Origin: a virus
Length of the DNA: 22,400 nucleotides
Reading direction: 5' to 3' (one strand)
IMG/VR virus record: IMGVR_UViG_3300047552_001395
Location: 1 to 22,400 of that record
In this document: positions 521 through 16,229 of the stretch, piece by piece
Position numbering within the stretch: position 1 is the first letter of the stretch
How the letters are laid out: every line of letters begins with the position of its first letter
Translations under genes and position numbers: made by a program
Notes under the pieces: model-generated
Told to the model about the DNA's origin: nothing
The model's input: the letters and a program-made list of their open reading frames with translations, nothing else
Databases searched by the model: none

Positions 521-840
521 TAGGTGGTCACGTCAAAGGTGATTTGGAAGCCGCCCTTGAGGATGGTGGTCACGACGCCCGCCGCGTCGGTGAGCTGGAT
601 GTCGTACCAGTAATTCCCCAGGGCGAGCGCCATCTGCGCCGCCGTGAACGTGACGACGCCTTCGCCGGTCGCCGGGGTGTAGACTACCGCCGTGGCCTGC
701 AAAACGGGCGAAGCGTCGCCCGGATTCGTCTTGATGGTGAACTTGACCGTAGAACCCGTCAGATCGATGGCGGCCCCTTGGTCGTCCTTGAAGGCCAGGT
801 TCCTCACGAAGGTATCGCCTCGGGTGTGGGAGATGTCCAT
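520..840 (-). CDS. BppU N-terminal/Ig-like tail protein
   Basis: The 106-residue protein opens with a RGDTFVRNLAF segment, then DLTGSTVKFTIK, a GEGVVTF strand, and GNYWYDIQL near residue 80. This series of beta strands matches the small beta-sandwich at the N-terminus of BppU-type baseplate upper proteins, often found as short stand-alone ORFs in siphophage tail modules. Such domains anchor receptor-binding proteins to the baseplate. Here the protein is only that domain, with no C-terminal fibre part, so a partner such as the next gene may supply it. It ends at a TAATG overlap with the YD-repeat gene. The family call is by pattern only. Confidence 0.65.
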   Translation of the reverse strand: MDISHTRGDTFVRNLAFKDDQGAAIDLTGSTVKFTIKTNPGDASPVLQATAVVYTPATGEGVVTFTAAQMALALGNYWYDIQLTDAAGVVTTILKGGFQITFDVTT

Positions 841-849
841 GGGCGGGAG

Positions 850-1329: not shown

Positions 1330-1331
1330 GT

Positions 1332-1763: not shown

Positions 1764-1773
1764 AAAACGGGGG

Positions 1774-3342
1774 TTAGTTGCGGTAGGTGCCGAAATAATG
1801 GGACTGGATTTCCTGCTGTGTCAACAGTTCGTCCGTCGCGAAGTAGTCGCCGCCCTGCGAGGCGCTGTTGGCTCCGCCGTCGTTGTCGGATCCGATGGTG
1901 AAGCCTATGCCCGTGGTAGAAGGGAGCGCCGCAACGGTTCCCGACGCAACGAGCGCGCCGTTGAGGTAGAGCGAGACGGCGGTGCCGTTGCGGACGCACG
2001 CGCAATGGAACCACTTGTCCGCCGTCAACGCCGTGCCGCCGTAAACCTCGGTGAGGCTCCCGGAGACAATGTTGAGGAACCAAAGCTGTGCGCTGGCGCC
2101 GCGGACGTAGAACCCGAACCAACTCGTGCCGCCTCCTCCGTCGTAGCGCGCTCCCATGATGATCCGGTGGACGCTGACGCTCGGGAACTTGCACCACGCC
2201 ATATAGGTGCCGACGGAATACTTGAAGTTGTCGCCGAACGACACGCGCGACGGGGCGCCCGGGAAAGCCAGCGCGTCGTTCTGCCCGGCGCGGATTTTCG
2301 TCTCCGCCGTGGAGACCATCGTCCCGTTCTTGGTGTTGTCCGCGATGTTGTAGACGGTCGTGCCGTTGAAGTATCCGGGGGCGTAGAGCTTCGCCTTGGA
2401 GAGCGTGGATGGGAGGATGGAACGCCGGAATGCGTAAGGGTAGCGGCCGGACTTGAAGCAGTTTTCAAGGTACGTCTGTTGCGCGGCGGTGACTGTTCCC
2501 GCCGGGTAGTAGAGAACAGCCCGGACGGTGTTGGCGGTGTTAATACCCGTCGCCGTGACCGCCGCGACGTTCTTTTCCAGCTTCCAACCGGAGTTGTTCC
2601 AGTAGACGAAAGAGTCCCCGGAGACGGAAGTCCAGGACTGGTTAGGCCCGGCGATGGCGCGGGAGATGCCGAACTCGTCGTTGGCGACCGTCCCGGCGGT
2701 GCGCGTGGCCTTGGTAGCAAGGCTCACGTCGTAAAAGGTGTCCTCGCCCACGGCGTCGAGGTACGCGGTGGGATTCGGGATGACCGCCCCGAAGTCGCTC
2801 CCGCCTCCCAGCTTGCGGTTGAACTCGTGCCAAAAGCGCAGGATGTCGTCGGCGGACGGCTTGGCGTTGAAAGTGCGGACGGCGGCGGCACTACCTAGGA
2901 AGGACGACACGCCAAAATTCCAGTTCGCGGCGGTGATGGAATCGTGGGTGACCATCACGAAGTTCCAGGCGTTGAGCGTCAAAGCGGCCGAGGCTTGGCC
3001 GTTGACGTAGATGGCGGAGTTCGTCAGCCCGGTCTGCGTAATGTTGTTGCTGGCGTCGATGGCGAGCTTGGCCGTCCCCGTGACGTACTGGAAAAGGTCT
3101 TTCGTGTTGGCCGTAGGACGGATGAACGCCATAAATCCCTGCACGGACGCCAGGGACGCGCGGGTGAGGTTCGAGGTCGCACCGAAAACGCCGCATTGCT
3201 TCTGATACCCGACAGGGCAGTCCGCATAGGTGACGTTCGTCCCGGTGTAGGTGACCTTCGTCCCGTCGTTCGTATCGGCTACGCTGCCATTCAACAGGAC
3301 TTCCCCGATGACGGCGGCGCGCGGCAGCGAGAAATAGGTCAT
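1774..3342 (-). CDS. Tail adhesin with two LamG/concanavalin-like modules
   Basis: The 522-residue protein appears to have two beta-sandwich modules of the LamG/ConA-like type. The first spans roughly 20-160 and includes GFMAFIRPT, IYVNGQ and LNAWNFVMVTHD. The second spans roughly 318-522 and includes VGTYMAWCKF, WFHCACVRNGT, VSLYLNGALVASG and GIGFTIGSDNDGG, then a final helix ELLTQQEIQSHYFG. The 'W...V....g..v.lyvNG' pattern in both is typical of laminin-G-like carbohydrate-binding domains. Between them lies a helical and loop region (about 163-315). Placement downstream of the baseplate hub suggests a receptor-binding or surface-polysaccharide-binding fibre. It starts in a TAAACCCATG junction without a Shine-Dalgarno sequence. 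Confidence 0.8.
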   Translation of the reverse strand: MTYFSLPRAAVIGEVLLNGSVADTNDGTKVTYTGTNVTYADCPVGYQKQCGVFGATSNLTRASLASVQGFMAFIRPTANTKDLFQYVTGTAKLAIDASNNITQTGLTNSAIYVNGQASAALTLNAWNFVMVTHDSITAANWNFGVSSFLGSAAAVRTFNAKPSADDILRFWHEFNRKLGGGSDFGAVIPNPTAYLDAVGEDTFYDVSLATKATRTAGTVANDEFGISRAIAGPNQSWTSVSGDSFVYWNNSGWKLEKNVAAVTATGINTANTVRAVLYYPAGTVTAAQQTYLENCFKSGRYPYAFRRSILPSTLSKAKLYAPGYFNGTTVYNIADNTKNGTMVSTAETKIRAGQNDALAFPGAPSRVSFGDNFKYSVGTYMAWCKFPSVSVHRIIMGARYDGGGGTSWFGFYVRGASAQLWFLNIVSGSLTEVYGGTALTADKWFHCACVRNGTAVSLYLNGALVASGTVAALPSTTGIGFTIGSDNDGGANSASQGGDYFATDELLTQQEIQSHYFGTYRN

Positions 3343-3346
3343 GGGT

Positions 3347-4213
3347 TTAGGCGGAGAAGCGGAGGATGAGGCGCGGGTTGACCGCCGGGGTGGTGGAACC
3401 GACGCCCGTCAGCGTGGCGTACAGCACGTCCCCGTCGGCTATCGCGGCGGAGGTGAAGGATGTGACAGGGGTTCCGACATAGCGGCCGTTGGTAGCGGAT
3501 TCCGTGGTGGTGACTTGGAGCGTGGAGGACAGGATGTTCCCGGAGCTGGTGGAGTTCTTGCGGAGTTCGCAAATCAGGTTGCTTCCCACCGGGAGCGTAT
3601 CGGAGATGACGGTGACTTCCGCGAGCGTCTTGGCCGTGGTGGCGTCAAACTTCCCGAGGATACCCACGACTGCGGGGCCTTCGTAGGATTGGGCGGTGAA
3701 CTCGTAGGCGGAACCCCCTGCTGCCGCGTTCTGGAACGTCGGGGCGGAAGAAGCTCCGTTGGACGTGAGGACTTGTGCCGCCGAGCCCGGTGCGGCGATG
3801 GGAAGCCATACGGCGTTCGCCCAGGCCCCGGAATGGTAGGTTCGTTCGACGCGGGTGCCTACGATGGCGTAAGCGGTGCCTCCGATGGTGGCGGTGCCGT
3901 TGCGGACCAAGACAGTGAACCCGTGGCCCGCTTCCGGCGTGGGATCGGTGACGGTCGCCGTTCCCGTGATGATATAGTTCCCGTGGACGGCGGCGGTGAA
4001 GTCGGTCGTCTTTTCTTCGCAGACGGACTGCTTTCCCGCAAGATCTGCCACGCCAGCCTTTCCGTCCAAAGCCGCCTGCGTCGCGTTGGAAATCGGGAAA
4101 GAGGCAGGCGTTGCGGCCTTCGTGACGCCGGACGTTGTTTCATCGAAAGGGAAAAGGTCGCTCGCCCCCGGAGACCCGAGGGGGAGTTCGGAGATTTTTT
4201 CGGGGAGGGCCAT
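3347..4213 (-). CDS. Tail fibre-like protein
   Basis: The 288-residue protein begins MALPEKISELPLGSP, with a following SDLFPFDETTSGVTKAAT stretch; this 'ISELP...D..P' opening is frequent in phage fibre proteins. A GSAAQVLTSNGASSAPTFQN segment near residues 142-161 is another recurrent fibre motif that usually precedes a distal domain. The C-terminal part (about 168-288) is Thr/Val-rich beta sequence. It lies between two other fibre-like genes and overlaps neither. The start is preceded by GTAAAAAATG, an A-rich leader rather than a Shine-Dalgarno sequence. The exact receptor or partner cannot be inferred. Confidence 0.75.
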   Translation of the reverse strand: MALPEKISELPLGSPGASDLFPFDETTSGVTKAATPASFPISNATQAALDGKAGVADLAGKQSVCEEKTTDFTAAVHGNYIITGTATVTDPTPEAGHGFTVLVRNGTATIGGTAYAIVGTRVERTYHSGAWANAVWLPIAAPGSAAQVLTSNGASSAPTFQNAAAGGSAYEFTAQSYEGPAVVGILGKFDATTAKTLAEVTVISDTLPVGSNLICELRKNSTSSGNILSSTLQVTTTESATNGRYVGTPVTSFTSAAIADGDVLYATLTGVGSTTPAVNPRLILRFSA

Positions 4214-4216
4214 TTT

Positions 4217-5557
4217 TTACAGGTTAACCGTGAAAAATGAGGCGATCTTGGCGATGAGGTTCTGCGTGAGGTCGTACTTGATCGCCAGCGGCCCGACCCG
4301 CGAGTTCGGGTTGTAGTACGTCGAAACGTCTTTGCAGTAGAGCTGTACCAAATCACCGGCGGCGAGCGTGAAATTTTCCGTCCACGACTGCGTTCCAGTA
4401 CTTCCAGCCAATCGTTCCGTACCCACCGCAACGCCGTTGATGTAAATCCTCCCGTTTTGGTAGTCGTCCGAATCGAACGGGTCGAGGTTCAGCGTGACGG
4501 CGTAGGTTCCAGCGAGGTTGCACTGGATCTCGAATTTCTTGGTGTAGACCGTTTCCGGGCAAGCCACCGTTCCGCCGGACTGCTTAGCAAGGTAGGTGCT
4601 ACCCGCGCTCATCGTATAGCCCCACGTCGAGAAAATCTCGCTGGCGTCCGGCACGACGTTGGCCGATCCCGTGAGGGTTTCAGCGCCGGTTGCGCGCTCG
4701 ACGCTACCCGCTTCCGAGGTGGACGCGAGCTTGGCGGCGATGGCTTGCTTGGTACGAAGCGGCGTCATCATCTTCGTGTTGTCCACGGCCGCCTCCGCTT
4801 CCGCTTGGCTGGCGACGTTGTACCCCGTGTACGGCGCCGAGGTGACGCGGAAATTCGTCCCGTCGTAGTGCAGGACGACGACCTGGCCGGAAAGGATCAT
4901 CCCGGCCGGAACGTCCGTCGTGCCGTCGGGCAGTTTCAAGGTCTTGGCGCCCAGCCCGTTCACGTTCATTGTGACCGGGGAGGTGTTTTGCGCCGGAGCG
5001 GTAAAGACCACCTCCATGCGGTTCGCGTAGGCCGTCGGGGCCGGGGTCAATTCCAGGACGTAGGCCGACGCGGAACCCGTGGCGGCGCCGCTGTTGAACG
5101 CCTTGTCGCGGGCCGCCTCCGCCGCCGTGCGGGTGTAAACCCGTGCGTCCGTGATTACGCCGGATGCCACCGTGGCGAGGCGGATATGGGCCGTGGCGGG
5201 CCAATCGGCGCCCGTTGCTACCTGGGCCAGACCGGAACCGTCCGAGACCGTGTTGAGAGAAGGGTCGTTGACACGCGCGGCGATAGGCTCCAGCCAAATC
5301 TTTTTCGTGCCGGAGGTGTCGATGGTTTCCGCCGTGGTAAGCTCCACGTGCATGAGAAATTTCTCGTTCGGCGTGGTGGACGTGCGGATGCCCACGACGA
5401 GCGCGCGCCCGAGGGCGACGCTGTTGGTGGTCACAGCCATCCCTTCGACGACTCCGCCGCCGCCGGGGAGGTCTTTCCAAAGGGAATAGCCGAACGCACC
5501 CAGGTCGTGATCCTTGGTGACGTTGGCGACGCCGGCGATCTGTCCTGCGCGAATCAT
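4217..5557 (-). CDS. Tail fibre protein with distal beta-sandwich
   Basis: The 446-residue protein follows the baseplate hub gene. Residues 1-145 form an Ala/Thr/Val-rich domain common in proximal fibre parts. Residues 170-245 contain TPAPTAYANRMEVVFTAP and VVVLHYDGTNFRVTS, and residues 252-273 contain the AEAAVDNTKMMTPLRTKQAI segment. That last pattern is a hallmark linker of many phage tail fibres. The distal part (about 300-430) looks like a jelly-roll, with IYINGVAVGTERLAGS and FTLAAGDLVQLYC, as in trimeric fibre tips. It most likely forms the main fibre attached to the baseplate. Family membership is assigned from motifs only. Confidence 0.85.
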   Translation of the reverse strand: MIRAGQIAGVANVTKDHDLGAFGYSLWKDLPGGGGVVEGMAVTTNSVALGRALVVGIRTSTTPNEKFLMHVELTTAETIDTSGTKKIWLEPIAARVNDPSLNTVSDGSGLAQVATGADWPATAHIRLATVASGVITDARVYTRTAAEAARDKAFNSGAATGSASAYVLELTPAPTAYANRMEVVFTAPAQNTSPVTMNVNGLGAKTLKLPDGTTDVPAGMILSGQVVVLHYDGTNFRVTSAPYTGYNVASQAEAEAAVDNTKMMTPLRTKQAIAAKLASTSEAGSVERATGAETLTGSANVVPDASEIFSTWGYTMSAGSTYLAKQSGGTVACPETVYTKKFEIQCNLAGTYAVTLNLDPFDSDDYQNGRIYINGVAVGTERLAGSTGTQSWTENFTLAAGDLVQLYCKDVSTYYNPNSRVGPLAIKYDLTQNLIAKIASFFTVNL

Positions 5558-5568
5558 GGTGGGAAAGG

Positions 5569-6738
5569 TTACAGGGAATTGAGGTAGGCTTGGTTCTCGA
5601 TCTGGGCAAGCTTCTTGGACAGGTCGCGGACGTAGGCGTACGTTTCAGACAGTCCCAATGTAACCCGTTCGCTTCCGTTTTCAACACGCAAAGTGAGCTG
5701 GTTGACTATGACGGACGCGTCGATGTCAAGGTATTCGCCGCAGTTGGCTATCCGCAGGGCTATCTTGTCGCCGCATTTCACGCGGGAAAGCGGGTCAACG
5801 ACGGTCTCCGGGGCGGCCTTGGTGACCAAAATCAGCCCGCCGTCCTCCTTCGTGATGGCACCGCCGTCCTCTTTCGCCAGGTAGCGGTCGGCCGGGACGG
5901 GCGGCTGGGACGGTTCCCCGGCGAACTCCACCGTGACCGTGACGACTTTCTGCTCCACCTTCTTGCTCGCCAGATACTCGGCGGCCGCCGCCGCAAGACC
6001 ACCCTCCCGAAATTCCTTGTATTCCCCGAGCGGCCCGTTCGCCGCTATGCTCCCGGCGTCCGTGTCGGTGCGCTTCGTGGTGCCGTCGGAGCTGACCAGG
6101 ACGTTGGAAAGCGTCTCGTAGGTCTCCACCTTCACGTCGCCGCAGTTGGAACCCCACGGGTCGGCCTTGTCGAACTGGACGATGGCGTAGTCCGCCCCAG
6201 CTACCGTGCGGTCAACGCCCAAGAGAGGGGCCATCTTGATGACCGTCCCTTCCGCGCGCCATACGCACCCTGCGGCGCCGGCTATTTCCTCGATGGCGTC
6301 AAAAAGCTTGTCGCCCTGCTTGAACTCCTTAGTCACGGCCGTTGTGACCGCCGAATCGACCGTCCAAGATTCCCCGTAGGCGCTGTTCCAGGCCAGCAAC
6401 AGGCCGCCGACGGCCGTATTGGCGGGCTGGGCGCTGATGGTGGTGTCGGCCAGCACCAGCTTCTTCTGCAAGATGGCCTTGTCCGAGCGGCACGTCACGG
6501 TCAGAACCTCGATGGATGCCTCCACGGAATAGATCGTCCCGGAGAAAATCACCTCGTCCGCCCCGTCCACCACGCGCACGACCTCGACGCGCTGGAACTG
6601 GCGCAGCCCCGTGACCGTGGACGGCAGGACGAACTCGCACACGTCGAAATCGTTGATGTCGCAGGACACCGAAAGCGATATCGGGTCGGATATCGTCTTG
6701 GCTCCGCCGGCGGCGGCTATCTTGAGGAAGTAGGCCAT
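5569..6738 (-). CDS. Baseplate hub/tail-associated protein (gp27-like)
   Basis: The 389-residue protein follows the Dit-like gene, the usual place of the siphophage baseplate hub. Features fitting this are the N-terminal beta-barrel part (about 15-90, including VEVVRVVDGADEVIFSGTIYSV) and the second barrel near 95-190. A YLAKEDGGAITKEDGG segment sits at about 285-300; the doubled EDG motif recurs in tail hub proteins of many siphophages. The C-terminal helix (SKKLAQIENQAYLNSL) may contact the tail fibres. No lysozyme or peptidase extension is present, so the protein is likely only the structural hub. It starts in a TAATG overlap with the distal tail gene. Confidence 0.8.
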   Translation of the reverse strand: MAYFLKIAAAGGAKTISDPISLSVSCDINDFDVCEFVLPSTVTGLRQFQRVEVVRVVDGADEVIFSGTIYSVEASIEVLTVTCRSDKAILQKKLVLADTTISAQPANTAVGGLLLAWNSAYGESWTVDSAVTTAVTKEFKQGDKLFDAIEEIAGAAGCVWRAEGTVIKMAPLLGVDRTVAGADYAIVQFDKADPWGSNCGDVKVETYETLSNVLVSSDGTTKRTDTDAGSIAANGPLGEYKEFREGGLAAAAAEYLASKKVEQKVVTVTVEFAGEPSQPPVPADRYLAKEDGGAITKEDGGLILVTKAAPETVVDPLSRVKCGDKIALRIANCGEYLDIDASVIVNQLTLRVENGSERVTLGLSETYAYVRDLSKKLAQIENQAYLNSL

Positions 6739-7586
6739 TAGGCGATGTACGTGTCATTCCAGTACATGCGGACCAGTGGCGGCGCAGATGGGCTGTAGAT
6801 TCCCGTGATGCTGATGAGATTGTCGCCCGGCATGAGCATGGGCGTGACCGACCCGGCCTCCCGGAAGCCGGAAACGTCGTCGCCGTCGTCCGTCACGGAC
6901 AGCGGCCGCACGGTCGCGTCCAGCACGAATTGCGTGGTGGTCACCCCGGACAGACCGTAGAACCGCCCATTGTTGCGGTTGGTGACCTTGGGGTTTTCGA
7001 TTTCCCCGATGATTTCCAGCCGGATGGGCGCGGGGTAGTTGCCGGCGTTGTTGGCGGAAAACGCGCCCGGGTCCGCCCCCAGCACCAGCGGGACGACGAA
7101 CGGCATAACGGCCCCGTTGACGTTGGAGATGGTGACGTTGCGCGACTTGTCCTCGAACCCGTCGAACGTGGCGTCCGGGGATATGAGGTCAAAGGAAAAC
7201 GACGCCACGGAGTCCGCTTTCTCGTGTTCCCATTCCGGCATCGCGTATACCTGCACGGCGGTCTTGAACATCCGCCCGGCAAAGTCCTCCCACACCAATT
7301 CCAAGAGCGACGTTCCGCTGATGAGGTCGTCCGGCCGCACGGCAGAATTGACCAAATCCACCCCGGCTTGCCGCTCCGCCTCCGTCCCGAACACCCGGCC
7401 CTTGACCGTGAACAGGCGCCCCTGGGCCACGGAACGGCCCACCACGGTGCCCGGGGAGGTTTGGCGGCCCAAGGTGAAGGTGGCAAGCTGAACGTCGTTT
7501 TTGAACGAATCCAGCACCACCCGGTTGGCGCGGGCGTCGGCGTCCGAGAACCCCACCCCGTTCAATGTGACGTTTTTGACGAGCAT
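6738..7586 (-). CDS. Distal tail protein (Dit-like)
   Basis: The 282-residue protein lies directly downstream of the tape measure gene, the standard place of Dit. Its N-terminus (MLVKNVTLNGVGFSD...VVLDSFKND) and the central segment GRLFTVKGRVFGTEAERQAGVDLVNSAV match the ring-forming N-terminal domain of Sipho_tail proteins. A galectin-like beta domain is plausible at about 160-282 (YPAPIRLEIIGEIENPKVTN). Dit forms a hexameric ring joining tail tube to baseplate and carrying the receptor-binding proteins. It starts in a TAATG overlap with the tape measure stop and ends in a TAATG overlap with the hub gene, so these three are probably translationally coupled. Confidence 0.85.
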   Translation of the reverse strand: MLVKNVTLNGVGFSDADARANRVVLDSFKNDVQLATFTLGRQTSPGTVVGRSVAQGRLFTVKGRVFGTEAERQAGVDLVNSAVRPDDLISGTSLLELVWEDFAGRMFKTAVQVYAMPEWEHEKADSVASFSFDLISPDATFDGFEDKSRNVTISNVNGAVMPFVVPLVLGADPGAFSANNAGNYPAPIRLEIIGEIENPKVTNRNNGRFYGLSGVTTTQFVLDATVRPLSVTDDGDDVSGFREAGSVTPMLMPGDNLISITGIYSPSAPPLVRMYWNDTYIA

Positions 7587-9442
7587 TAGGACGACAGCTT
7601 AGAGACGATTTTATCCGTGATGAGCTTGGCGTCCACCGCGTTTTTCACGTCGTTGTTCACGATGACCGTGGTGGACCCGGCGGCCGCGTCGGCCGGGACG
7701 GAGCTTCCGCCCACCTCCCGGAGGCGCACGCGGGCCTCGATCTGCCGCTGGATTTCGTCGGTCAGCCGCTTGCTGGCTTCGATTTGCTGCGCGATGTTCG
7801 CCTGGAACTCGGCGGTGAACTCCCGTTCGGCGTTGATCTTGGCCTTTTTCAGCTCGTCCACGTTCGCCAGCTCGGTGTCGAACTTCACTTTGAGCGCCGC
7901 CGTTTCCAGGTCGATGGCCGCCAGTTTCTCGTCGCGCTCCTTCACGATGCGCTCCGACTGGGAGAGCTTGTCGTACGCCTCCGCCTGCAACCGCACCTGT
8001 TCCGTGGTGGCCTTTTCCAGGAAAGACTTTTCGGCCATGAGTTTGGCAAGCTGCCCCTCGTCCTCCACCTCGCCGGATACGATTTCCGCCAGGTCGCGCC
8101 GCACCTCGACGTACCGGGCGCCAAGCTCCTTGTTCGCGTCTTTATTGATTTCGGCCGCTTCCTCGGCGTTCTTCTTGATCTGCTCCGACAGGTCCAGCGC
8201 GGCATCCTCGGCCTTCCGTATGGAGTCCTTAATGGTCTCGTAGGCCGTGACGTACAAGCCTTTGCGTCGCTCGATGCGCTTCTGTTCTTTCTCAAAAGCG
8301 GCTTCCCGGACGCGCTCGACGCTCTCCGCGTCGTCCTCGGCCTGTTTCTTTGCGGCCTCCGCCTGTTTCTTCCGCAGGGCGTCGGCTTCGCCGGCGGACT
8401 TCTTGGATGCCGTGGTCTGCGCGTTGGCGGCGAACTTCGCCACTTCGTCCGTCTCCTGCTTGATCGACTCGAATTCCCCGGCGATGTTGGCGCCCATCGT
8501 CTCCCAGTCCATGCCGATGTTCCGAAACGCCAGCTTCGCCTTGCGCGTGAGGTCGGGGAAGCTGACGCCCGCGAACGGGTTGGACACTCCGACCTTCCCG
8601 GTCACGTCGATCTTCCCGAACGTGAGGTCTTTCACGCCCTGCGCCCAGTCCTGCGAAAATGTGTTGAGCTTTTCCAGGACGTACCCGAAAGACGCCTCCG
8701 CCGCCTGGGGTATGGAGCGGAAAACGTCGGTGATGAGGCCGCCGAGCTGCACGAACACGTCACCGACGAAAATGCCGAAATTGCGGACGGCCGAACCGGC
8801 TTGCCGGAGCGACTGGGACGTTGCGGAAAATATTTGCGACACCTTCTTGACGCCTTCCTCGCTGTTCCGGCCGAACATGCCGAAGAACCGCTCAACGGTG
8901 GACCACAGGACGCCGCCGATCTGCACTTCCAGGCGCTCGAAGGCATTTTGCGTACCGGCCAGCTTGGAGGTGAACTGCGAGCTGGCCGACCCTCCCGCGT
9001 CGAAGAATTTTTTGAGCGAGTCCTTAGCCACCTTCGCGGTCAATGCGCCGCCCAGCGCGGAAATGCTGCGCGAGACGTGCATGATGCGGTCGTTCACGCC
9101 CGAGAACAGCTTGCCCAGCACCGACACGTCCTTGTTGCCCGTGCGGGAAAAGTTCGTCAGCTCCCGTTGCGCCTGGGCGATGCGCTGCTTGAAGATGGCG
9201 ATGTCCGCCGTGACGCGGATTTGCCCCTGGCGGTCGCCCGTCGCCCGGAGTTCCTTCAAAAGCTGTTCCGCCTCGCGCTTGCCCTGCTGGAACCTGGCCA
9301 GCCGCAGGGACAAATCGACGGCCGCCTGGCTCTTGACGCGCTCGTTGAAGCCCGTGATGTCGTCGCGCACGGCGTCCAGCCCGGTCTTGAACTGGGAGGC
9401 GTCGGCCTCGATGGAGACGGTCAGTTTGTCTACGACTGGCAT
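7586..9442 (-). CDS. Tape measure protein
   Basis: This 618-residue protein is the longest in the window and lies between the tail assembly chaperone and Dit. It is largely helical. The N-terminal part (about 1-110) has the KLTVSIEADASQFKTGLDAVRDDI opening typical of tape measure proteins. Residues about 115-260 are more hydrophobic. Residues about 340-590 are a long charged coiled coil rich in Ala, Glu and Lys. The C-terminus (GSTTVIVNNDVKNAVDAKLITDKIV) is a usual tape measure ending. Tape measure length sets tail length; using the general figure of about 1.5 angstrom per residue, the tail would be near 90 nm. The start overlaps the chaperone by 13 bases. Confidence 0.92.
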   Translation of the reverse strand: MPVVDKLTVSIEADASQFKTGLDAVRDDITGFNERVKSQAAVDLSLRLARFQQGKREAEQLLKELRATGDRQGQIRVTADIAIFKQRIAQAQRELTNFSRTGNKDVSVLGKLFSGVNDRIMHVSRSISALGGALTAKVAKDSLKKFFDAGGSASSQFTSKLAGTQNAFERLEVQIGGVLWSTVERFFGMFGRNSEEGVKKVSQIFSATSQSLRQAGSAVRNFGIFVGDVFVQLGGLITDVFRSIPQAAEASFGYVLEKLNTFSQDWAQGVKDLTFGKIDVTGKVGVSNPFAGVSFPDLTRKAKLAFRNIGMDWETMGANIAGEFESIKQETDEVAKFAANAQTTASKKSAGEADALRKKQAEAAKKQAEDDAESVERVREAAFEKEQKRIERRKGLYVTAYETIKDSIRKAEDAALDLSEQIKKNAEEAAEINKDANKELGARYVEVRRDLAEIVSGEVEDEGQLAKLMAEKSFLEKATTEQVRLQAEAYDKLSQSERIVKERDEKLAAIDLETAALKVKFDTELANVDELKKAKINAEREFTAEFQANIAQQIEASKRLTDEIQRQIEARVRLREVGGSSVPADAAAGSTTVIVNNDVKNAVDAKLITDKIVSKLSS

Positions 9443-9993
9443 TTTTCGGCGCGCTTAAGGGTCTCCAGGGCCATTCTAAAGGACGGGTCTTCCTTGGCAA
9501 GCCTCACGCGCTCTTTCCCCAGCGTCCGGGCGTTCTCGGCCCGGCCTTCCTTGGTCAGCTCGTTGGCGTTCCAGCGCAGCCCGGAGGAAAGCTCCTTGAC
9601 CTGGGCCAGCGTGTACCGCTCCATGATGGTGAGCGGGTCGCAGGACAGCTCCTTGGCGAGCGTGGCGAGCGTGGCGCCGAACGGGGGGGCGGCGACGGCC
9701 GGCGACGGCGTGCCTTCCAGGGCGCCGCCGAAGTAGGCCGGGCGCACCATGTCCCACAGCTTTTGCCAGTCGTCCCACATGGCTTGCACTTGCCAGCCCT
9801 TCGGACGGGTTACACAGCTCTCCAAGAGGAACCGAACGACCCACTCCCGGACGGTGACGCCCTCGGCCTGGAACTCGCACAGCTCGGCCAAGGTGGCCTC
9901 CTTGAATCGGAAAAACAACCGCGCGCGGCGGCGGAAGGGGAACCCTCCCGCCACCTCGGCGGCGACCTCGTATTCCTTGCGGGTGGGGAACAC
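9430..9993 (-). CDS. Tail assembly chaperone (gpG/GT-like, single frame)
   Basis: The 187-residue protein precedes the tape measure gene, the conserved place of tail assembly chaperones, which bind the tape measure protein during tail-tube assembly. Residues 1-86 form a helical domain (RFKEATLAELCEFQAEGVTVREWVVRFLL). A Pro/Ala linker follows (about 89-108), and then a second helical domain (about 110-187) with ERYTLAQVKELSSGLRWNA. In most siphophages the second part is reached by a programmed -1 frameshift; here both parts are read in one frame. The linker is encoded across a run of seven C residues on the coding strand. The start is GTG, preceded by a C/A-rich leader after the TAA of the major tail gene. 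Confidence 0.82.
   Translation of the reverse strand: MFPTRKEYEVAAEVAGGFPFRRRARLFFRFKEATLAELCEFQAEGVTVREWVVRFLLESCVTRPKGWQVQAMWDDWQKLWDMVRPAYFGGALEGTPSPAVAAPPFGATLATLAKELSCDPLTIMERYTLAQVKELSSGLRWNANELTKEGRAENARTLGKERVRLAKEDPSFRMALETLKRAEKCQS
9683..9689 (-). other. C7 run with slippery-heptamer form in the chaperone linker
   Basis: The coding strand reads GCC GCC CCC CCG TTC, encoding Ala-Ala-Pro-Pro-Phe at about residues 101-105. In the reading frame this is C CCC CCG, which fits the X XXY YYZ pattern for -1 slippage. A -1 slip would add 68 Arg/Ala/Gly-rich codons and stop at 9476, giving about 172 residues. That tail looks like ordinary out-of-frame sequence, so any shift would swap off the second domain rather than add one. 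Confidence 0.5.
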
Positions 9994-10005
9994 GGGGGTT
10001 TGCGG

Positions 10006-10845
10006 TTAGACGCGCTCGGAGTAGCGCAGCGAGTAGCCGCCCTTGTTCGTCATCAGCTCGACGGGGGAGCCTTCCAGGTCGTTGTTGCTGGGGTCCAGGA
10101 ACGAATCGACCAGGGAGCCGGCCACGGAAGCGTCCACCAGGTACTGGTAGTTGACCTTGCCGTTCTCGTCGGCGGACGTGGCGATCTTGACGACCAGGCG
10201 CGGGGTTTCCAGCGTCGTGGCGGCCAGGGAAGAAGCGACGGCGGCGTTCGGGGTGTACGAGTACGACACCGTGATGGCGCCCGTCTGGGCGGTCAGCGGG
10301 ACGATGTACGTATACCCGAGTTCGCCGTTGGTGCCGTCGCCGACGTACGTGCGGTAGTCCGTGTTCAGGACCAGCGCGATGTTGTCTTCCTCGACGACGA
10401 TGGACGCGACGATGGTGTTGTCGCCGTCCTTGTTTTCCAGCTTGAACGGCTGGCCGATGGTCCAGCCCGTGCCGTGGGCTTCGTCGGTGACGGCCACGGG
10501 GGAGGCGGCGACCGTGTTCTTGACGCGGCCCGTGAGCAGGGCGCGGGCGTCTTCGTTGCCGGATTCGTACCAGGTCGCCTCGACCGTGGTGACGGGACGG
10601 ACGGCGCGCCAGATGGTGCCCGTGTCGTCGGCGATGATCTCTTTCAGGTCGGCGGCCATGTCGGCGGTCGCCTTGAGGCCGACCACGGAAGCGAGGCGCG
10701 TGAACGTGCACTTGGCCTCGATGTCGGTGCGGACGGCGGCCAGGTTGGACTGCCCCGCGTTGATGGCCGCCAGGTTGGACGGCAGCTCCGCGACGTAGAG
10801 CATCGCGGGCTGGGTCGCCAGGTGGTTGGGATTGACTGCGCCCAT
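10006..10845 (-). CDS. Major tail protein (tail tube)
   Basis: The 279-residue protein sits between the tail terminator and the tail assembly chaperone, the standard location of the tube protein. It has a mixed beta composition with TFTRLASVVGLKATADM (about 47-63), VTTVEATWYESGNEDARALL (about 85-104), and strand-rich segments such as AITVSYSYTP and PRLVVKIATSADENGK. The C-terminal part (about 240-279) includes the DPSNNDLEGSPVELMTNKGG segment, which resembles the tail end of other siphophage tube proteins. Tube proteins stack as hexameric rings around the tape measure. It follows the tail terminator stop by seven bases and has no Shine-Dalgarno sequence. Confidence 0.82.
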   Translation of the reverse strand: MGAVNPNHLATQPAMLYVAELPSNLAAINAGQSNLAAVRTDIEAKCTFTRLASVVGLKATADMAADLKEIIADDTGTIWRAVRPVTTVEATWYESGNEDARALLTGRVKNTVAASPVAVTDEAHGTGWTIGQPFKLENKDGDNTIVASIVVEEDNIALVLNTDYRTYVGDGTNGELGYTYIVPLTAQTGAITVSYSYTPNAAVASSLAATTLETPRLVVKIATSADENGKVNYQYLVDASVAGSLVDSFLDPSNNDLEGSPVELMTNKGGYSLRYSERV

Positions 10846-10852
10846 GTTGGGT

Positions 10853-11263
10853 TTAGGTCACGGAGTAAATGGAATCGATGATCACGTCGTGGATCAGCAC
10901 CCGCCTTTCCTTTTCGTCCTTGAGCCAGAGCCAGCTCGCCCCGGACGAAACGCGGTAGGCGCGGAACGTCGTGAACGAGTGAGCCCCTGCGGACGTGGAA
11001 TGTACGAGGGCTTTTTCCGCTTCGAGCATCCCGCCCTCGACGGAGGAACGGGTAGCGGTTCGTGCGTTGGAGACGGCGCGCAGCTCGACGCGCGCCCGGT
11101 TGTTCACGGAGTCCCAGGACTGCGAAACGGTGTCCAATACCAGGTATGGCCCGGCCTGGGAATCGTCCAGCGGCTCGCCCGCCCATATCCGCGCGCCGAA
11201 AACGGCCGCGACGGACGGGACGGTACGCAGCCAGGTGGCTATTTCCTCAAGTCGGATGCCCAT
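10853..11263 (-). CDS. Tail terminator protein (gpU/DUF3168-like)
   Basis: The 136-residue protein fits the tail-terminator position just before the major tail gene. It opens with a helix, IRLEEIATWLRTVPSVAAVFG, followed by beta strands (PYLVLDTVSQSWDSV and RARVELRAVS). Then come a helix (GGMLEAEKALVHS) and the final strands (RVLIHDVIIDSIYSVT). This alpha-beta-helix-beta order is that of gpU and DUF3168 tail terminators, which cap the finished tube and connect it to the head. The start lies inside the preceding gp10-like gene, a 25-base overlap, so translational coupling is likely. The upstream ATG context shows no Shine-Dalgarno sequence. Confidence 0.78.
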   Translation of the reverse strand: MGIRLEEIATWLRTVPSVAAVFGARIWAGEPLDDSQAGPYLVLDTVSQSWDSVNNRARVELRAVSNARTATRSSVEGGMLEAEKALVHSTSAGAHSFTTFRAYRVSSGASWLWLKDEKERRVLIHDVIIDSIYSVT

Positions 11264-11613
11264 GCTCGGATTGCTTCGGTTATCGTCTTGGTGACCTCCT
11301 GCCGCTTGGCGTCGAACGCGAGCGTGAACATGCGCGCGCCGACCCCTCTGCGGAACACGACACCCTTGGGCTTGTGGTAATTGTAAGCCCTGCCGACGCC
11401 GTATTCCACGTAGGTGGCGTAGGACGTGGCGTTCTCGATGCCACCGGATACCTTGTCGCCGGAGACGGAGAGCTGCGTCAGCTTCGTGGAGCGCACCAGT
11501 CTTGTCGTATCTTCCGGGGTGCGCGCGTCAGCTTCGGCCTTTAGGACTTGCGACGCCTTCGCCACGGCCGGCCCGAGGGCCTTCAGCAACGATTTGTCGG
11601 CGTCTTTCAGCAT
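11239..11613 (-). CDS. HK97 gp10-like head-tail joining protein
   Basis: The 124-residue protein has an N-terminal helix (LKDADKSLLKALGPAVAKASQVLKAEADART) and a TRLVRSTKLTQLS stretch. The segment NATSYATYVEYGVGRAYN follows at about residues 61-78. The last segment is the signature of the HK97 gp10-like family (S-Y-A-x-Y-V-E-x-G), whose members act at the head-tail interface. Gene order agrees, with head closure upstream and tail terminator downstream. It starts after TGACCTAAACACATG, with the head-closure stop just upstream. Its final 25 bases overlap the tail terminator gene. Confidence 0.85.
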   Translation of the reverse strand: MLKDADKSLLKALGPAVAKASQVLKAEADARTPEDTTRLVRSTKLTQLSVSGDKVSGGIENATSYATYVEYGVGRAYNYHKPKGVVFRRGVGARMFTLAFDAKRQEVTKTITEAIRAWASDLRK

Positions 11614-11617
11614 GTGT

Positions 11618-11938
11618 TTAGGTCAGCAGCTTCACCTTGCATTCCAGGTTGTCCACGACGCCCGCCCACTTGTGCGGGACGGCCGACTCGACGAGCCAGT
11701 CTTTCCCGCCGTGGCGGACGACGCTTCCGACCTGGACCGAGGACGAGCCGCGGAAGCACGCCGTGGCGGTCGTGACCTCCGTCTCCCTCCCCAGTTGCCC
11801 GTCGGCCAGCTTGGCCGAATACGACCACCACGCGCAGGGCTGGTTCGCCGCGACGAGGGACAACGCCACGACCTGTTCCGCCCCGGATTCCGAGACGGTC
11901 TGCGCGTACACGTCGGCCAGTTCGTCGAAGAAGACCAT
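11618..11938 (-). CDS. Head-closure/stopper protein
   Basis: The 106-residue protein is Ala/Val-rich beta sequence with VQVGSVVRHGGKDWLVESAV (about 68-87), a strand-turn-strand pattern seen in head-closure (gp7/SPP1 gp16-like) proteins. Such proteins close the portal exit after packaging. Its position between the gp6-like connector and the gp10-like protein supports this call, since these three usually occur together. The start is ATAATATG, overlapping or adjoining the stop of the connector gene, with no Shine-Dalgarno sequence. The protein has no membrane segment. The family assignment rests mainly on order and size. Confidence 0.7.
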   Translation of the reverse strand: MVFFDELADVYAQTVSESGAEQVVALSLVAANQPCAWWSYSAKLADGQLGRETEVTTATACFRGSSSVQVGSVVRHGGKDWLVESAVPHKWAGVVDNLECKVKLLT

Positions 11939-11939
11939 A

Positions 11940-12491
11940 TTATGCGACGGCGGGTTGGTATTTGCGGACGATGGACTCGGCGGCCATGACGGCCGGATCG
12001 GCGTCTTTTCCGTAAGTGACGGAGCGCGGCCCCAGCGTTTGGGAAACCACGTCCCGCCCGGCTTCGCGCGTCAAGGCCTTTGCGGCCAGCTCCACGACGG
12101 CGTTCTTGAGGTCGGCCGGACAGGCGGCCCCGCCCGTGAGCGTGACCGTGAAGTACGGCGAGTACGAGAACGTGACGGGCAGGGAAGGCATGGTGACCTC
12201 TTCCCCGTCCAGCCAGTAGTCGGTGCCAAGGACGCCCGTATAGGCGGCGCCATCGACTTTCGTTACCGCCGTGGCGAACTTCGTAGGCAGGACGAACTTG
12301 TCGCCGAACCGGGAAGCGTGCCGGATCTTGGCGTCGTAGCCCGTCCCGAAGTCAGAAGCCAAGACAGGCCCGACGATCCCCCGCGCCCATGCGGAAACCG
12401 CGTCCAGGGCCGCTTGTACCTGCGCGTCGGAGACGGAGGCCAAGGCGGGCTGGGCGGTGCGGAATTCCGCGAGGGTGGCGAGGGATTGCAT
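11940..12491 (-). CDS. Head-tail connector (gp6-like adaptor)
   Basis: The 183-residue protein begins with a helical segment, SLATLAEFRTAQPALASVSDAQVQAALDAVSAWARGIVG, which matches the N-terminal helices of gp6-like adaptors that bind the portal. A beta-rich insertion (about 55-120) contains KFVLPTKFATAVTKV and TFSYSPYFTVTLTG. A C-terminal helical part follows with KNAVVELAAKALTREAG, and the last segment is SIVRKYQPAVA. This helix-strand-helix order is usual for the family. It sits directly after the small basic-tailed gene downstream of the major capsid gene. The start is preceded by TAAGACCGACCG and no Shine-Dalgarno sequence. Confidence 0.8.
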   Translation of the reverse strand: MQSLATLAEFRTAQPALASVSDAQVQAALDAVSAWARGIVGPVLASDFGTGYDAKIRHASRFGDKFVLPTKFATAVTKVDGAAYTGVLGTDYWLDGEEVTMPSLPVTFSYSPYFTVTLTGGAACPADLKNAVVELAAKALTREAGRDVVSQTLGPRSVTYGKDADPAVMAAESIVRKYQPAVA

Positions 12492-12500
12492 CGGTCGGTC

Positions 12501-12740
12501 TTACTTTTTCTGACGCTTGGGCTTTTCCGGAGTTGAGACGGTGGCGACGGCTTGCGCCGTTTCTCCCGCCTCGCGGAACCGATTGATGTTCAGATACCGA
12601 GCATAGCCCGGATGGGCCATGTGCGGCTCGGCGAACTCTACCGTTACCGTTTCCCCTTCGCGCACCTTCGTCTTTTCCGTAGCTCCTGGGAGCATGATGA
12701 GGGTTTCTCCTTTTCCGGCGTATCGGAAGGTGCGCTTCAT
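12501..12740 (-). CDS. Small protein downstream of the capsid gene
   Basis: This 79-residue protein has a predicted beta core, FRYAGKGETLIMLPGATEKTKVREGETVTVEF, and a lysine-rich C-terminal tail ending KPKRQKK. Small genes in this position, between major capsid and connector, sometimes encode head decoration or head-completion proteins. That role is only inferred from location. The core could be an SH3-like or Ig-like barrel. It begins 11 bases after the capsid gene stop, in a TAACC...CCCATG junction, and ends nine bases before the connector start. No catalytic motif is visible. Confidence 0.7.
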   Translation of the reverse strand: MKRTFRYAGKGETLIMLPGATEKTKVREGETVTVEFAEPHMAHPGYARYLNINRFREAGETAQAVATVSTPEKPKRQKK

Positions 12741-12751
12741 GGGGAAGTCGG

Positions 12752-13927
12752 TTAGACGGTGGCGTTGATCGCGAGGGCGCCCGTGGCGCCTTCACCGACG
12801 AGGGACGTGGCGATGGCCAGGCCCATGTCGTAGGAACCGAGGATCTGCCAGCCCTTGCCCGGGATGCGGTAGACTTCCAGGACGTAATCGGAGCCGAAGC
12901 CGTACTGGACGGCCTTGGAGTTGACGAACATGAATCCGCCCTTCGTGTTGGACGCCGGGGTGGCGGACTGCTTGCCGTCGGCTTCCGTGAGGCCGAACAC
13001 TTCGGACGTGTAGACGTTGCAACCGAGGATCTTCGTCAGCGCGCGGACGCCTTCGTTGACCGTGGACATGTTGCCGTTCTTGGCGGCGTCCGCGAAGTCG
13101 GCGATGCCGAGGGACTTGAGGTACGTCTGCGTGTTCATGATCAGCGCAACGTCGGCCGGGTTGGCGGCGTAGGCGCCAAGCTTGCCCATGACCGTGGCGT
13201 AGTCGTCGAACGCCAAGGCGCCCACGTCCGTAGCGGCGGACAGGAACGACTTGCGGAGACCGTCGGCGCCCAGGTAATAGGACGTGTCAGCCGGATCGGC
13301 GTCATCGGAGTTGACGTTGCCGGTAGCGGCGTTCGTCGTGTCGCCGTTGATGATGAGGCCTTCGATGGTGCGGGCGGCGGACTTCGCCAGCTTGGCCTGG
13401 ATGAGCGCCAAGAGGTCGATGACCGAGTAGCGAACGTCCATGTCGGAGACATCGACGGAAGCCTGGTACGTCTTCTGCGTCAGCGTGACGAGGGCCGTCG
13501 GGACGCGCTTCGTGCCCTGGGCGATGGCGCCGGCGCCGGTCGTCCATTCGGAAGCCAGGTCGTGGAATCCGACCTCACCGACGACGGGGCGCTTTTCGAT
13601 CTTCTGCAAACCGCGGCCGTGGAAACCGGCCTGGAAAGCCTGGACGACCGGGGAGTACGTCGGGGCCATGTCCAGGAAGTCGGACATGAGGACGGACGCC
13701 GGGACGAGTTCGGCTCCGTAGCCGGTGTTCGTCGAGTGCATCACTTCGTTGGCGCGGGTCGTGAGCAGGGCCTTGCGTTCCAGGGCCTTGGAAAGGTCGG
13801 CGCGGTGATCGGCGGCGCCTTCGGACTTGTACTGGCCGGCGAGAAGCTCGGCCATGAGGCGGGTCGCGTCGGCGGCGGACCGGATGGTACCGACGTGGAC
13901 GGCGCCCGGCTTGAGAGCGGGATTCAT
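12752..13927 (-). CDS. Major capsid protein (HK97 fold)
   Basis: The 391-residue protein follows the prohead protease gene by six bases, the standard arrangement for an HK97-type capsid. The N-terminal part (about 1-60) is helical and charged (DATRLMAELLAGQYKSEGAADHRADLSKALERKALL). Such a delta-type arm is often cleaved off by the protease. Typical capsid segments follow: MHSTNTGYGAELVPASVLMSD (about 63-83), SVDVSDMDVRYSVIDLLALIQAKLAKSAARTIEGLIINGD, and the C-terminal VYRIPGKGWQILGSYDMGLAIATSLVGEG. The segment around SAARTIEGLIINGD resembles the conserved spine helix of the HK97 fold. It starts after TAAAGAAACATG and has no Shine-Dalgarno sequence. Confidence 0.88.
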   Translation of the reverse strand: MNPALKPGAVHVGTIRSAADATRLMAELLAGQYKSEGAADHRADLSKALERKALLTTRANEVMHSTNTGYGAELVPASVLMSDFLDMAPTYSPVVQAFQAGFHGRGLQKIEKRPVVGEVGFHDLASEWTTGAGAIAQGTKRVPTALVTLTQKTYQASVDVSDMDVRYSVIDLLALIQAKLAKSAARTIEGLIINGDTTNAATGNVNSDDADPADTSYYLGADGLRKSFLSAATDVGALAFDDYATVMGKLGAYAANPADVALIMNTQTYLKSLGIADFADAAKNGNMSTVNEGVRALTKILGCNVYTSEVFGLTEADGKQSATPASNTKGGFMFVNSKAVQYGFGSDYVLEVYRIPGKGWQILGSYDMGLAIATSLVGEGATGALAINATV

Positions 13928-13933
13928 GTTTCT

Positions 13934-15025
13934 TTATGCGTGAACGCTCCGGGCGATTTCGGCCAGCGACGGCATCCTGTAGGAAGCCGACGGGCCATTG
14001 TTGACGGGCGTGCCGGAGCTAAAGCCGCGCGTCAGCATCTTGTTCATCCGTTCCTCGGCCTCGGTCTTGGCGGCGCGGACGCCGTTCAGTTCCGTTTCGA
14101 GGGCGGAAATTTTGGACTGGTGGGCCTTGCTGGCTTCCTGTTCGGAGGCGAGCGCGGCGCGCGCGGCTTCCAACTCTTTGGAGAGCTGGGACGCTTTGGT
14201 TTCGGCCTCGGTCACCTTGGCTTCCGCTTCGGCCTTGGCGGCTTCCGCTGCTTCGATGGCGGGGTCTTTCGCCTCTTCCTGGTGTTCCACAGGTTGGGCG
14301 GCGTCCGGCACAATGGCGGCGGGCGTCTCGTCGGGTTTCACGACTTCCTCCTTGGCCTTTCCGTCCGCGTCCGCTTGCGCGGCCGCCGGGGTTTCACCGG
14401 CATTTTCAGCGGGCTGGACAGGTTCGGCAACGGGTTTGACCTCCGGGACGACCTCGGCCGCCACGGGGGCGACAGGGGCATCTTGCGTATCTTCGGCGCG
14501 GCAGGCGCGCAGCTCGTCACCGATCTCCTGCATGGAGCGGGCGACGGAAAAGAGGGTGTTTGGGTTGGCGGGGACGGAGACGACGGAGATCTCCTTCATC
14601 TCGATTTTCGTAAGGACCAGCACCTCGCGGTCAGCGACGGCGCGGAACTCCCACGAGACGGGCATGAAGCCGACGGAGAAACCGCGCAGTACGCGGTTCT
14701 TGACGGCGGAGAACACCCCGTCCACGTCCTCGGTGATTTCGGCGCGTACAAACAGGCCGCCCTGGTCGATGGAGTATTCCACCACCTGGCCGATAGGCTT
14801 GTCGTGCTTGTGTTGGAGCAGCACCACCGGGTTCTTGGCCAGGTAGTCGCGCATCGAATCGGCGTAGGCCGAAGGCTCGATGATGGACTCATAGCTGTCG
14901 ATGTCCGGCGTGGAAGCCAGGCCCTCGACGGTGATCTTTCCTTCCGCCGAACCGTCCACGGCGCGGAAAGCGACCTGGAAGTTGCGGACCTTGGAAAGGG
15001 CTTGTTCGAGCTTCTGCTTGTTCAT
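13934..15025 (-). CDS. Prohead protease with coiled-coil scaffold-like C-terminal extension
   Basis: The 363-residue protein has two parts. Residues about 15-160 are the S78/U35 prohead protease domain: EGLASTPDIDSYESIIEP, then LLQHKHDKPIG with the expected catalytic His72. RGFSVGF follows with Ser117, and EISVVSVPANP with Glu145. Residues about 175-260 are a disordered Pro/Ala/Glu linker (PVAPVAAEVVPEVKPVAEP), and about 255-335 are a heptad-like coiled coil (AEAEAKVTEAETKASQLSKELEAARAA). The C-terminus is SYRMPSLAEIARSVHA. Since no separate scaffold gene is seen, the extension may serve as scaffold before capsid maturation. It starts in a CCCATCATG context between the portal and capsid genes. 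Confidence 0.9.
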   Translation of the reverse strand: MNKQKLEQALSKVRNFQVAFRAVDGSAEGKITVEGLASTPDIDSYESIIEPSAYADSMRDYLAKNPVVLLQHKHDKPIGQVVEYSIDQGGLFVRAEITEDVDGVFSAVKNRVLRGFSVGFMPVSWEFRAVADREVLVLTKIEMKEISVVSVPANPNTLFSVARSMQEIGDELRACRAEDTQDAPVAPVAAEVVPEVKPVAEPVQPAENAGETPAAAQADADGKAKEEVVKPDETPAAIVPDAAQPVEHQEEAKDPAIEAAEAAKAEAEAKVTEAETKASQLSKELEAARAALASEQEASKAHQSKISALETELNGVRAAKTEAEERMNKMLTRGFSSGTPVNNGPSASYRMPSLAEIARSVHA

Positions 15026-15035
15026 GATGGGAAAA

Positions 15036-16181
15036 TTAGGCTTGCGGTTGGGAAGGTTCTGCCGGGTCGTTGAGCGATTCGTCCGGTTCGTGCCCGACGT
15101 AATCGCGGGCCTCGTTTGTCGTGATGATGCCGCCCGACTTGAGCTTGACGGCGATGTCGGCCCATTGCATTGCCTGGCTGATATGGTCGTCGATGATGTC
15201 GGCGGTGCAACCGTAGGGAGAGAGCAACGTATTTAAAACCTGCTCGAACCGTTCCTCCATCGGGCGGACGGTGTTCTCGATGAAAATTTGGTACTGCTGC
15301 GCCCCGTTGGCGTAGTTGACTCCCTCCGTGTAGTTGAGGATGGACTTCGGGACGCCCATCGCGGCGCACACTTTCTCCGTGGAGAACTGGCGCATCCCCA
15401 CCCACTTGCCGTCCTTGTCGGTCGCCGTGAGCGTGATGATCGAGTCGATGGCGTTGGACAGGGTGCCGACCTTGCCCTGGTTCTTGGCGCCTCCGTACTT
15501 GGCTTCCATCTGCTCGCGCAGCTTGTCGGCCTGTTCCTGCGTAGCACCGGCCACCAGCTTGACAAGGTGGGCGGGGACGGCGTTGTTGTCGAAAAAGACG
15601 AAGTTCGCCATTGCCGCGCGGTCGTCCCCGAATGCGTCGTACACCACGCGGGCGACCGGGGAAATGCCCCAGGCTGGGTTTTTCCTGTCCTTGGCGGGCT
15701 TGACGTGGATAACGTCCTCGGCGGGGTAGGTGAACTGCCGCCCCTGGCGCATCTGATCGGCGTACACGTAGCGCGTCGGCAGGGACGTGGCGCTGTCGGT
15801 GTAGATCGTGACGTGGCACGGGTCCAGCAACTCCACTCCCACCGGGTTGCCCTCGGCGTTGCGGAGGATGGCCCAGAAGACGTTGCCGCCCACCTTCACG
15901 TCCACCACGGCGTCGCCCTTCACGGACAGGAACGACTTGACCAGCGCGTCCGTCTCGGGGGATTTGAATTCCCGCTCGCCCTTCATCACCAGAACGCCGG
16001 ACTTCGCCACGGTGTCGCCCAGTACCTCGGTCGCGCGGGAAACGTCGCCGTTTCGCTCCCAAACGTCAAACCAGGTGCGCATCGAGCGGACGGCCAAAGG
16101 TTGGTCGCCCGCTTGGGAGTTCTGCCGGAGTATCGGCGTGGCCGTCGCCGCACGGAACGCGGCCTTGCGAGGTTTTGGCAT
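15036..16181 (-). CDS. Portal protein (HK97 family)
   Basis: The 381-residue protein is a portal of the phage_portal (HK97 gp3-like) type. Visible features are the N-terminal MRTWFDVWERNGDVSRATEVL region and LLDPCHVTIYTDSATSLPTRYVY (about 118-140). VIHVKPAKDRKNPAWGISPVARVVYDAF (about 157-184) contains the G-x-SP-x(n) pattern common in this family. The core segment QMEAKYGGAKNQGKVGTL and the C-terminal GGIITTNEARDYVGHEP also fit. Portals form the dodecameric DNA channel at one capsid vertex. This start is unusual for the window: it has a clear AAAGGAA Shine-Dalgarno sequence five bases before the ATG and a candidate promoter just upstream. Confidence 0.92.
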   Translation of the reverse strand: MPKPRKAAFRAATATPILRQNSQAGDQPLAVRSMRTWFDVWERNGDVSRATEVLGDTVAKSGVLVMKGEREFKSPETDALVKSFLSVKGDAVVDVKVGGNVFWAILRNAEGNPVGVELLDPCHVTIYTDSATSLPTRYVYADQMRQGRQFTYPAEDVIHVKPAKDRKNPAWGISPVARVVYDAFGDDRAAMANFVFFDNNAVPAHLVKLVAGATQEQADKLREQMEAKYGGAKNQGKVGTLSNAIDSIITLTATDKDGKWVGMRQFSTEKVCAAMGVPKSILNYTEGVNYANGAQQYQIFIENTVRPMEERFEQVLNTLLSPYGCTADIIDDHISQAMQWADIAVKLKSGGIITTNEARDYVGHEPDESLNDPAEPSQPQA

Positions 16182-16185
16182 CGAG

Positions 16186-16192
16186 TTCCTTT
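16186..16192 (-). promoter_or_regulatory. Shine-Dalgarno sequence of the portal gene
   Basis: The transcribed strand reads AAAGGAA followed by CTCG and then ATG. AGGA is five bases from the start. Almost every other start in the window lacks such a sequence, so this marks the portal start as a possible independent translation entry. Confidence 0.75.
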
Positions 16193-16198
16193 GAGGTC

Positions 16199-16226
16199 AC
16201 ATTATCCCGCGAGTCGCGCAAGTCAA
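16199..16226 (-). promoter_or_regulatory. Candidate promoter before the portal gene
   Basis: In the 48-base gap between terminase and portal genes the minus strand has a -35-like TTGACT (five of six to consensus) and a -10-like TAATGT 16 bases downstream. TAATGT matches consensus weakly (three of six). GATAAT is a closer match two bases up but leaves only 14 bases of spacer. Within the spacer lies a perfect odd palindrome, CGCGACTCGCG, at 16208-16218. The arrangement could be a repressible promoter, but the sequence alone does not prove it. Confidence 0.45.
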
Positions 16227-16229
16227 GCG

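Follow-up and report, generated by a model that had tools for sequence, protein, structure and literature searches.

In phage lambda, the tail assembly chaperones gpG and gpGT are made with a programmed -1 frameshift, and a 30:1 ratio of the short to the long form is described as crucial (PMC5009743). Such a frameshift is not annotated in every phage genome. Among 3,679 SEA-PHAGES genomes, 1,203 have no annotated frameshift gene, and 347 of those carry a single chaperone gene, for some of which the authors suspect incomplete annotation (PMC10885494). Slippage can also work in the opposite direction, and in E. coli dnaX, which sets the precedent, a frameshift leads to loss of a domain (PMC5009743). 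Split-frame chaperones are widespread enough for a slippery run in a one-frame gene to suggest a site of recoding. Among the papers searched, none joins Gracilibacteria, phage and tail assembly chaperone.

The gene considered here lies in a 22.4-kb virus record, the whole of which we call the window, and belongs to the late region of a siphophage, encoded on the minus strand. Family matches support assignment of the terminase, portal, protease, capsid, head-tail adaptor, neck/tail completion protein and Dit. The GC content of the window is 57-66% per kb, and the stop codons of 21 minus-strand genes (167-17690) comprise 17 TAA, 4 TAG and no TGA. On codon use, the phage looks compatible with the standard code as well as with code 25, and its TGA-free stops resemble those of Gracilibacteria and Absconditabacteria phages that are compatible with code 11 (PMC10746230). 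The absence of TGA from all 21 stops, together with relatives that read TGA as glycine, suggests a host among the Gracilibacteria or Absconditabacteria.

Some other features of the window deserve mention in their own right. The major tail protein (279 aa) contains, in two neighbouring stretches, about 80 residues that also occur in the related locus L004 and are absent from another, L008, like an inserted domain. Adjoining the late genes at 850-1329 (minus strand) is an enoyl-CoA hydratase-like match to phrog_1128 (E 9.2e-16). Finally, at 18773-19393 (minus strand), two open reading frames in the same frame are separated by one stop codon; both have coding-like codon usage, and they may represent separate genes or a single gene that has been interrupted.

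To judge from the gene order, its size and weak fold matches, the gene considered here probably encodes a tail assembly chaperone. The gene overlaps the start of the tape measure gene by 13 bases. In the window and in the relatives L008, L018 and L021, homologues of the major tail protein lie upstream of it and homologues of the tape measure downstream. In L030/L033 there are also homologues on both sides, the upstream match being weak (E 0.0015-0.0096), and in L039, where the contig ends, there is an upstream homologue only. Searches of Pfam, PHROGs, NCBIfam and PDB sequences gave no informative match to a known tail assembly chaperone family. The structural model of the window protein, built from an alignment with four homologues, is weak (mean pLDDT 65). 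The model of the L021 protein has an N domain with pLDDT 79-94 over residues 11-90, in which a beta hairpin is followed by helices, and a low-confidence linker at 93-102. Residues 6-98 of this model weakly match 3fgx_A (Z 3.2, rmsd 4.3, 85 aligned), a protein called a tail assembly chaperone in PMC9603447; the match ranks 15th, after short alignments (about 34-41 residues) with the model's last helix. Among the best 50 of 540 matches in BFVD, eight are named tail assembly chaperone or GT protein, none of them at E 0.001. HK97 gp13 (2OB9) and YqbN (3KLU) were not among the structure matches listed, which excludes nothing. Furthermore, searches of the window, L005, L008, L018 and L021, each of which is a fragment, detected no separate short copy of the chaperone better than E 0.2.

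Table 1. Features at and around the putative chaperone gene, in window coordinates
Feature	Coordinates	Strand	Remarks
Major tail protein	10006..10845	-	Position and homology to L008 (41%) and L004 (30% in alignment)
Putative tail assembly chaperone gene, one-frame, two-domain	9430..9993	-	187 codons, GTG start, TAG stop
N-terminal domain, residues 1-94	9712..9993	-	Predicted beta hairpin then helices, resembling TAC-N folds
Linker, residues 95-103	9685..9711	-	Model confidence low at 95-101
C7 run, coding strand	9683..9689	-	G7 on the plus strand
In-frame heptamer C_CCC_CCG	9682..9688	-	Last base of Ala102, then Pro103 and Pro104
C-terminal domain, residues 104-187	9433..9684	-	Same frame as the N-terminal domain
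-1 reading after a slip	9476..9682	-	68 codons and TAG; not protein-like by codon usage
Tape measure protein	7586..9442	-	Position; N-terminal part homologous to L008 (27%)

A preliminary description of this DNA had drawn attention to a C7 slippery run in the linker of a chaperone whose two parts share one frame, and had noted that a -1 shift there would replace the second domain with 68 out-of-frame codons. Each of these observations holds (Table 1). The run is real and forms an in-frame heptamer, the two parts form a single open reading frame, and the -1 reading closes as described. Within the gene, the frame reads GCC CCC CCG (Ala102-Pro103-Pro104) and follows the pattern X_XXY_YYZ. The linker was placed from predicted structures: residues 95-101 are one of five low-confidence segments in the model of the window protein, and residues 91-100 are the lowest-confidence block (39) in that of L021. 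C7, at residues 102-104, is at the end of the linker, where the next helix begins. Beyond it, the C-terminal domain carries a G-x-x-W-N-x-N-E motif that is common to a four-row alignment.

Scored with codon usage learned from other genes, frame 0 is strongly coding on both sides of the run (+63.3 for the N part and +65.3 for the C part), and the other frames score between -46.8 and -84.3, the -1 reading being at -46.8. The C-terminal domain does not lie in a different frame, as the coding score is positive in frame 0 alone. Because coding signal is confined to frame 0, there is no sign of selection on the -1 product. The same scores bear on a sequencing or assembly error, under which the true run would have six or eight C, the real gene would be split, and a frameshift would be needed to join its parts. 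Such an error could enter a virus record from IMG/VR, and no second contig found covers the site; the near-identical contig that we recovered with the capsid query (IMGVR_UViG_3300042988_001172, a partial genome) ends at window position 11403, before C7. However, where this second assembly aligns with the remainder of the record (10,998 bp), identity is 99.99%, and errors therefore seem rare. That both halves belong in one frame is itself an argument against a run of six or eight C, which would place one half in a strongly negative frame. It would also break a one-frame gene that is common to all five relatives, each of which is in one frame across this point. On these grounds, we consider an error to be very improbable.

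The relatives were reached by indirect routes. No close homologue of the chaperone was found in the collections searched (viral contigs, phages and genome contigs), and queries with the major tail protein, tape measure and Dit likewise returned none. Among phages, the capsid query gave no close homologue, and the terminase and portal queries gave distant phages only. Relatives were found via capsid and portal queries and via a chaperone profile; capsid and chaperone profiles were run on 379 genomes of the phylum and 353 of the class, and the portal profile on viral contigs. Besides the near-identical contig, the capsid query led to the diverged relatives L004 and L008, the latter located in a Candidatus Gracilibacteria MAG. 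The chaperone profile yielded one gene each in L008, L018, L021, L030 (the same place as L033) and L039. In one scan of 19 loci with this profile, 14 had no match (L004, L013, L014, L016, L017, L019, L020 and L022 to L028). The contigs of L004, L014 and L003 stop short of the chaperone site; L003, whose capsid is 96% identical, was outside the scan. Six further hits (G612, G530, G670, G462, G638 and G361) were taken as chance matches and left out of the count of homologues. The five chaperone relatives come from Gracilibacteria-class genomes or virus contigs and were read with TGA as glycine. In-frame TGA codons occur in L004, L008 and other relatives, and the frames are open when TGA is read in this way. 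Pairwise identity among the six chaperones is 16-31%, except for 71% between L018 and L021.

A single frame runs through both domains in all six chaperone genes. The preliminary description had proposed a comparison with homologous chaperones, in which absence of both the run and a frame change would speak against its suggestion; neither C7 nor a change of frame occurs in any of the five relatives. CCC codons are missing from the linkers of all five, so that no C run of at least five can be present there, and since the relatives at hand are diverged, these counts bear on conservation of C7 over long distances only. An in-frame X_XXY_YYZ heptamer of some kind is present in the linkers of L021 (A_AAA_AAA) and L039 (A_AAA_AAT) and absent from those of L008, L018 and L030; about 2.8 would be expected in the five relatives from the heptamer density of their own genes. 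Even the closest pair disagrees, with the heptamer present in L021 and absent from L018. Across the relatives, a conserved slippery heptamer at the domain junction is thus absent.

These comparisons also bear on whether C7 is a remnant. In that case, an ancestral split G/T pair, joined by frameshifting, would have been brought into one frame by a later insertion or deletion that left the slippery run behind. Both states do occur in the wider group, where putative chaperones are split between frames in L013 and L016, two loci with related heads and other tail modules; given that six chaperones are in one frame, frame-split and one-frame genes coexist there. Yet all six diverged chaperones are already in one frame, so any fusion predates their split, and a neutral run, of which the relatives retain no trace, would hardly last so long. 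We therefore regard a remnant as very improbable.

The two split loci are of some interest in themselves. L013 (8883-9450) holds an unrelated putative chaperone pair whose second part is in the +1 frame, with TTTTTCCCCC in the overlap; this is the T5C5 motif with which programmed slippage of RNA polymerase has been associated (PMC5009743), and the preceding 30 nt show only weak folding. In L016 (13957-14540), a first part of 125 codons is followed by a second of 86 codons in the -1 frame, and the overlap contains no in-frame X_XXY_YYZ heptamer.

Homopolymer counts place the run in a genomic setting. The window has eight homopolymer runs of at least six, and C7 is the sole C or G run among them. 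CCCCCCC occurs once in 22.4 kb compared with 8.9 times expected from dinucleotide shuffles. The 20 minus-strand genes contain one C/G run of at least six against 6.8 expected from synonymous codon shuffles, and one or fewer such runs were seen in 0.5% of 1000 shuffles. The phage avoids C/G runs of at least six in its genes, and the run in the linker is the one exception. Inside the chaperone gene, C7 is not above chance expectation: synonymous shuffles of this gene contain C7 or G7 in 25.4% of cases and GCCCCCCC in 18.6%. The run is easy to form there because of the amino acids and codon usage of the gene. The product of the probabilities of GCC for alanine and CCC for proline is 0.16, and both halves have a GC3 of 0.88. 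The 20 minus-strand genes, with 5,726 codons in total, contain 16 in-frame X_XXY_YYZ heptamers of any type, which gives an expectation of about 0.07 for a linker of 26 codons.

Some slippage at the run is plausible because the heptamer is listed as shift-prone in E. coli. There, C_CC.C_CC.G belongs to a set of underrepresented motifs at which shifting exceeds 0.10% with no stimulator present (Sharma et al., PMC4066793), and the best bare heptamers shift at roughly 0.3% (PMC4066793). By computation, neither of the dnaX-type stimulators was found at C7. The downstream RNA folds no better than shuffled sequence (z +0.39 for 93 nt and +0.78 for 37 nt), and an equal or more stable fold exists at 44.5% (30 nt, n=942) and 63.3% (50 nt, n=923) of the positions sampled in 11 genes. 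For an upstream Shine-Dalgarno-like element, the best match to AGGAGG within 26 nt is only 3/6.

Other outcomes of slippage were considered and set aside. The -1 reading shares its frame with the tape measure gene but closes before that gene begins, and a fusion of chaperone and tape measure by a -1 slip is blocked by the TAG at 9478-9476. A +1 slip at CCC-C would run for 41 codons to a TGA, or for 218 codons if TGA is glycine, and is without support. Transcriptional slippage is held to be unlikely, as C7 has neither of the contexts described for it, T5C5 and a run of nine A or T (PMC5009743).

Truncation is the outcome that merits most attention. With reversed, dnaX-like use, unshifted reading would make the long chaperone, and a slip at C_CCC_CCG would yield the N domain with a replaced, non-functional tail, and so provide the short form, which is abundant in lambda and comes there from unshifted translation. 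Both the frame and the position of the heptamer suit this use, its class is prone to shift in E. coli (PMC4066793), and it is part of the only C/G run of six or more in the window. The removal of a domain by the dnaX shift is a precedent (PMC5009743). However, no stimulators like those of dnaX were found at the run, and the E. coli dnaX shift ends one codon later as opposed to 68 codons here. After the linker midpoint, the -1 frame stays open for 2 codons in L008, 1 in L018, 1 in L021 and 16 in L030, so that the 68-codon tail of the window has no counterpart in these four. A truncating shift would require the prompt closure that L008, L018 and L021 show, yet such closure is frequent anyway in these AT-rich genes: in four of the five relatives, -1 frames close on average within about 7-12 codons, and the inflated mean for L018 probably comes from the tape measure frame, which is open at the end of the gene. 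Likewise, an A-rich heptamer is found in the linkers of two relatives, but the other three, including L008 and L018 with their prompt -1 stops, have no in-frame linker heptamer, and C7 is in none of the five. Searches for a separate short copy, which found none better than E 0.2 in the window and in L005, L008, L018 and L021, leave room for a short form made by slippage; nevertheless, lambda has 30 times as much short as long form (PMC5009743), and the best bare heptamers, at roughly 0.3%, fall far short of such a level (PMC4066793). Reversed use is, in our judgment, unlikely. A more specific version would have the run newly gained, spared from the genome-wide avoidance of C/G runs, and used as in dnaX to make an N-domain-only short chaperone, with the A-rich heptamers of L021 and L039 as possible independent equivalents. 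This elaboration is, if anything, slightly less likely.

Our results are most consistent with a naturally fused, one-frame putative tail assembly chaperone that carries a slippery run by chance, in a siphophage related to Gracilibacteria phages, and we consider this very probable. Its basis is that six diverged genes are each in one frame, the other five lack C7, no stimulators were detected, and frame 0 alone is coding. The preliminary description had offered a remnant, reversed slippage, chance and sequencing error as options. Chance is the best supported of these, with five of five relatives lacking the run and any frame change, and a run of six or eight C is unlikely. In a chance origin, the long form would hold G-like and T-like parts in one reading frame, and C7 would have arisen because a GC-rich gene encodes Ala-Pro-Pro where a flexible linker ends. 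Translation would continue through the run without a shift and make the full protein. Judging from the E. coli heptamer data, a small fraction may slip and give an unneeded product with a nonsense tail of 68 residues. The short form would then not be required, or might be made otherwise, for example, by proteolysis. Several findings count against chance. The sole exception among C/G runs sits at the linker and invites a functional reading, a linker heptamer of some kind is present in three of the six genes with the window included, and the -1 frame closes one or two codons past the linker midpoint in three of the four relatives measured.

A fused chaperone with a chance run has implications for how these phages assemble tails and for how their genes are annotated. 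The one-frame state is common to all six members found of a diverged family of Gracilibacteria-type phage chaperones. Such phages may have no ratio of short to long chaperone made by frameshifting, or may make the ratio in another way. In annotation, an isolated linker heptamer should count as weak evidence of recoding when neither conservation nor stimulators accompany it.

Compared with described systems, the locus shares something with each and matches none of them fully. As in E. coli dnaX, where a shift at A_AAA_AAG truncates the product, unshifted reading gives the long form and an in-frame X_XXY_YYZ heptamer, here C_CCC_CCG at 9688-9682, precedes the C-terminal domain. It differs from dnaX in that no stem-loop or Shine-Dalgarno stimulator was found, the -1 frame has no prompt stop (68 codons), and the run is absent in relatives. 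The likeness to lambda gpG/gpGT lies in the position of the gene, with the major tail protein gene on one side and the tape measure gene on the other, and in the combination of an N- and a C-terminal domain. In contrast to lambda and its programmed -1 frameshift, all six genes are in one frame, with no conserved slippery site, and sequence families provide no informative match. T4-like phage chaperones that do without frameshifting have a separate short copy beside the fusion, whereas none better than E 0.2 was found here in the fragments searched. In those phages, as at this locus, the long form is a one-frame fusion (PMC10885494, citing Vladimirov et al. 2022).
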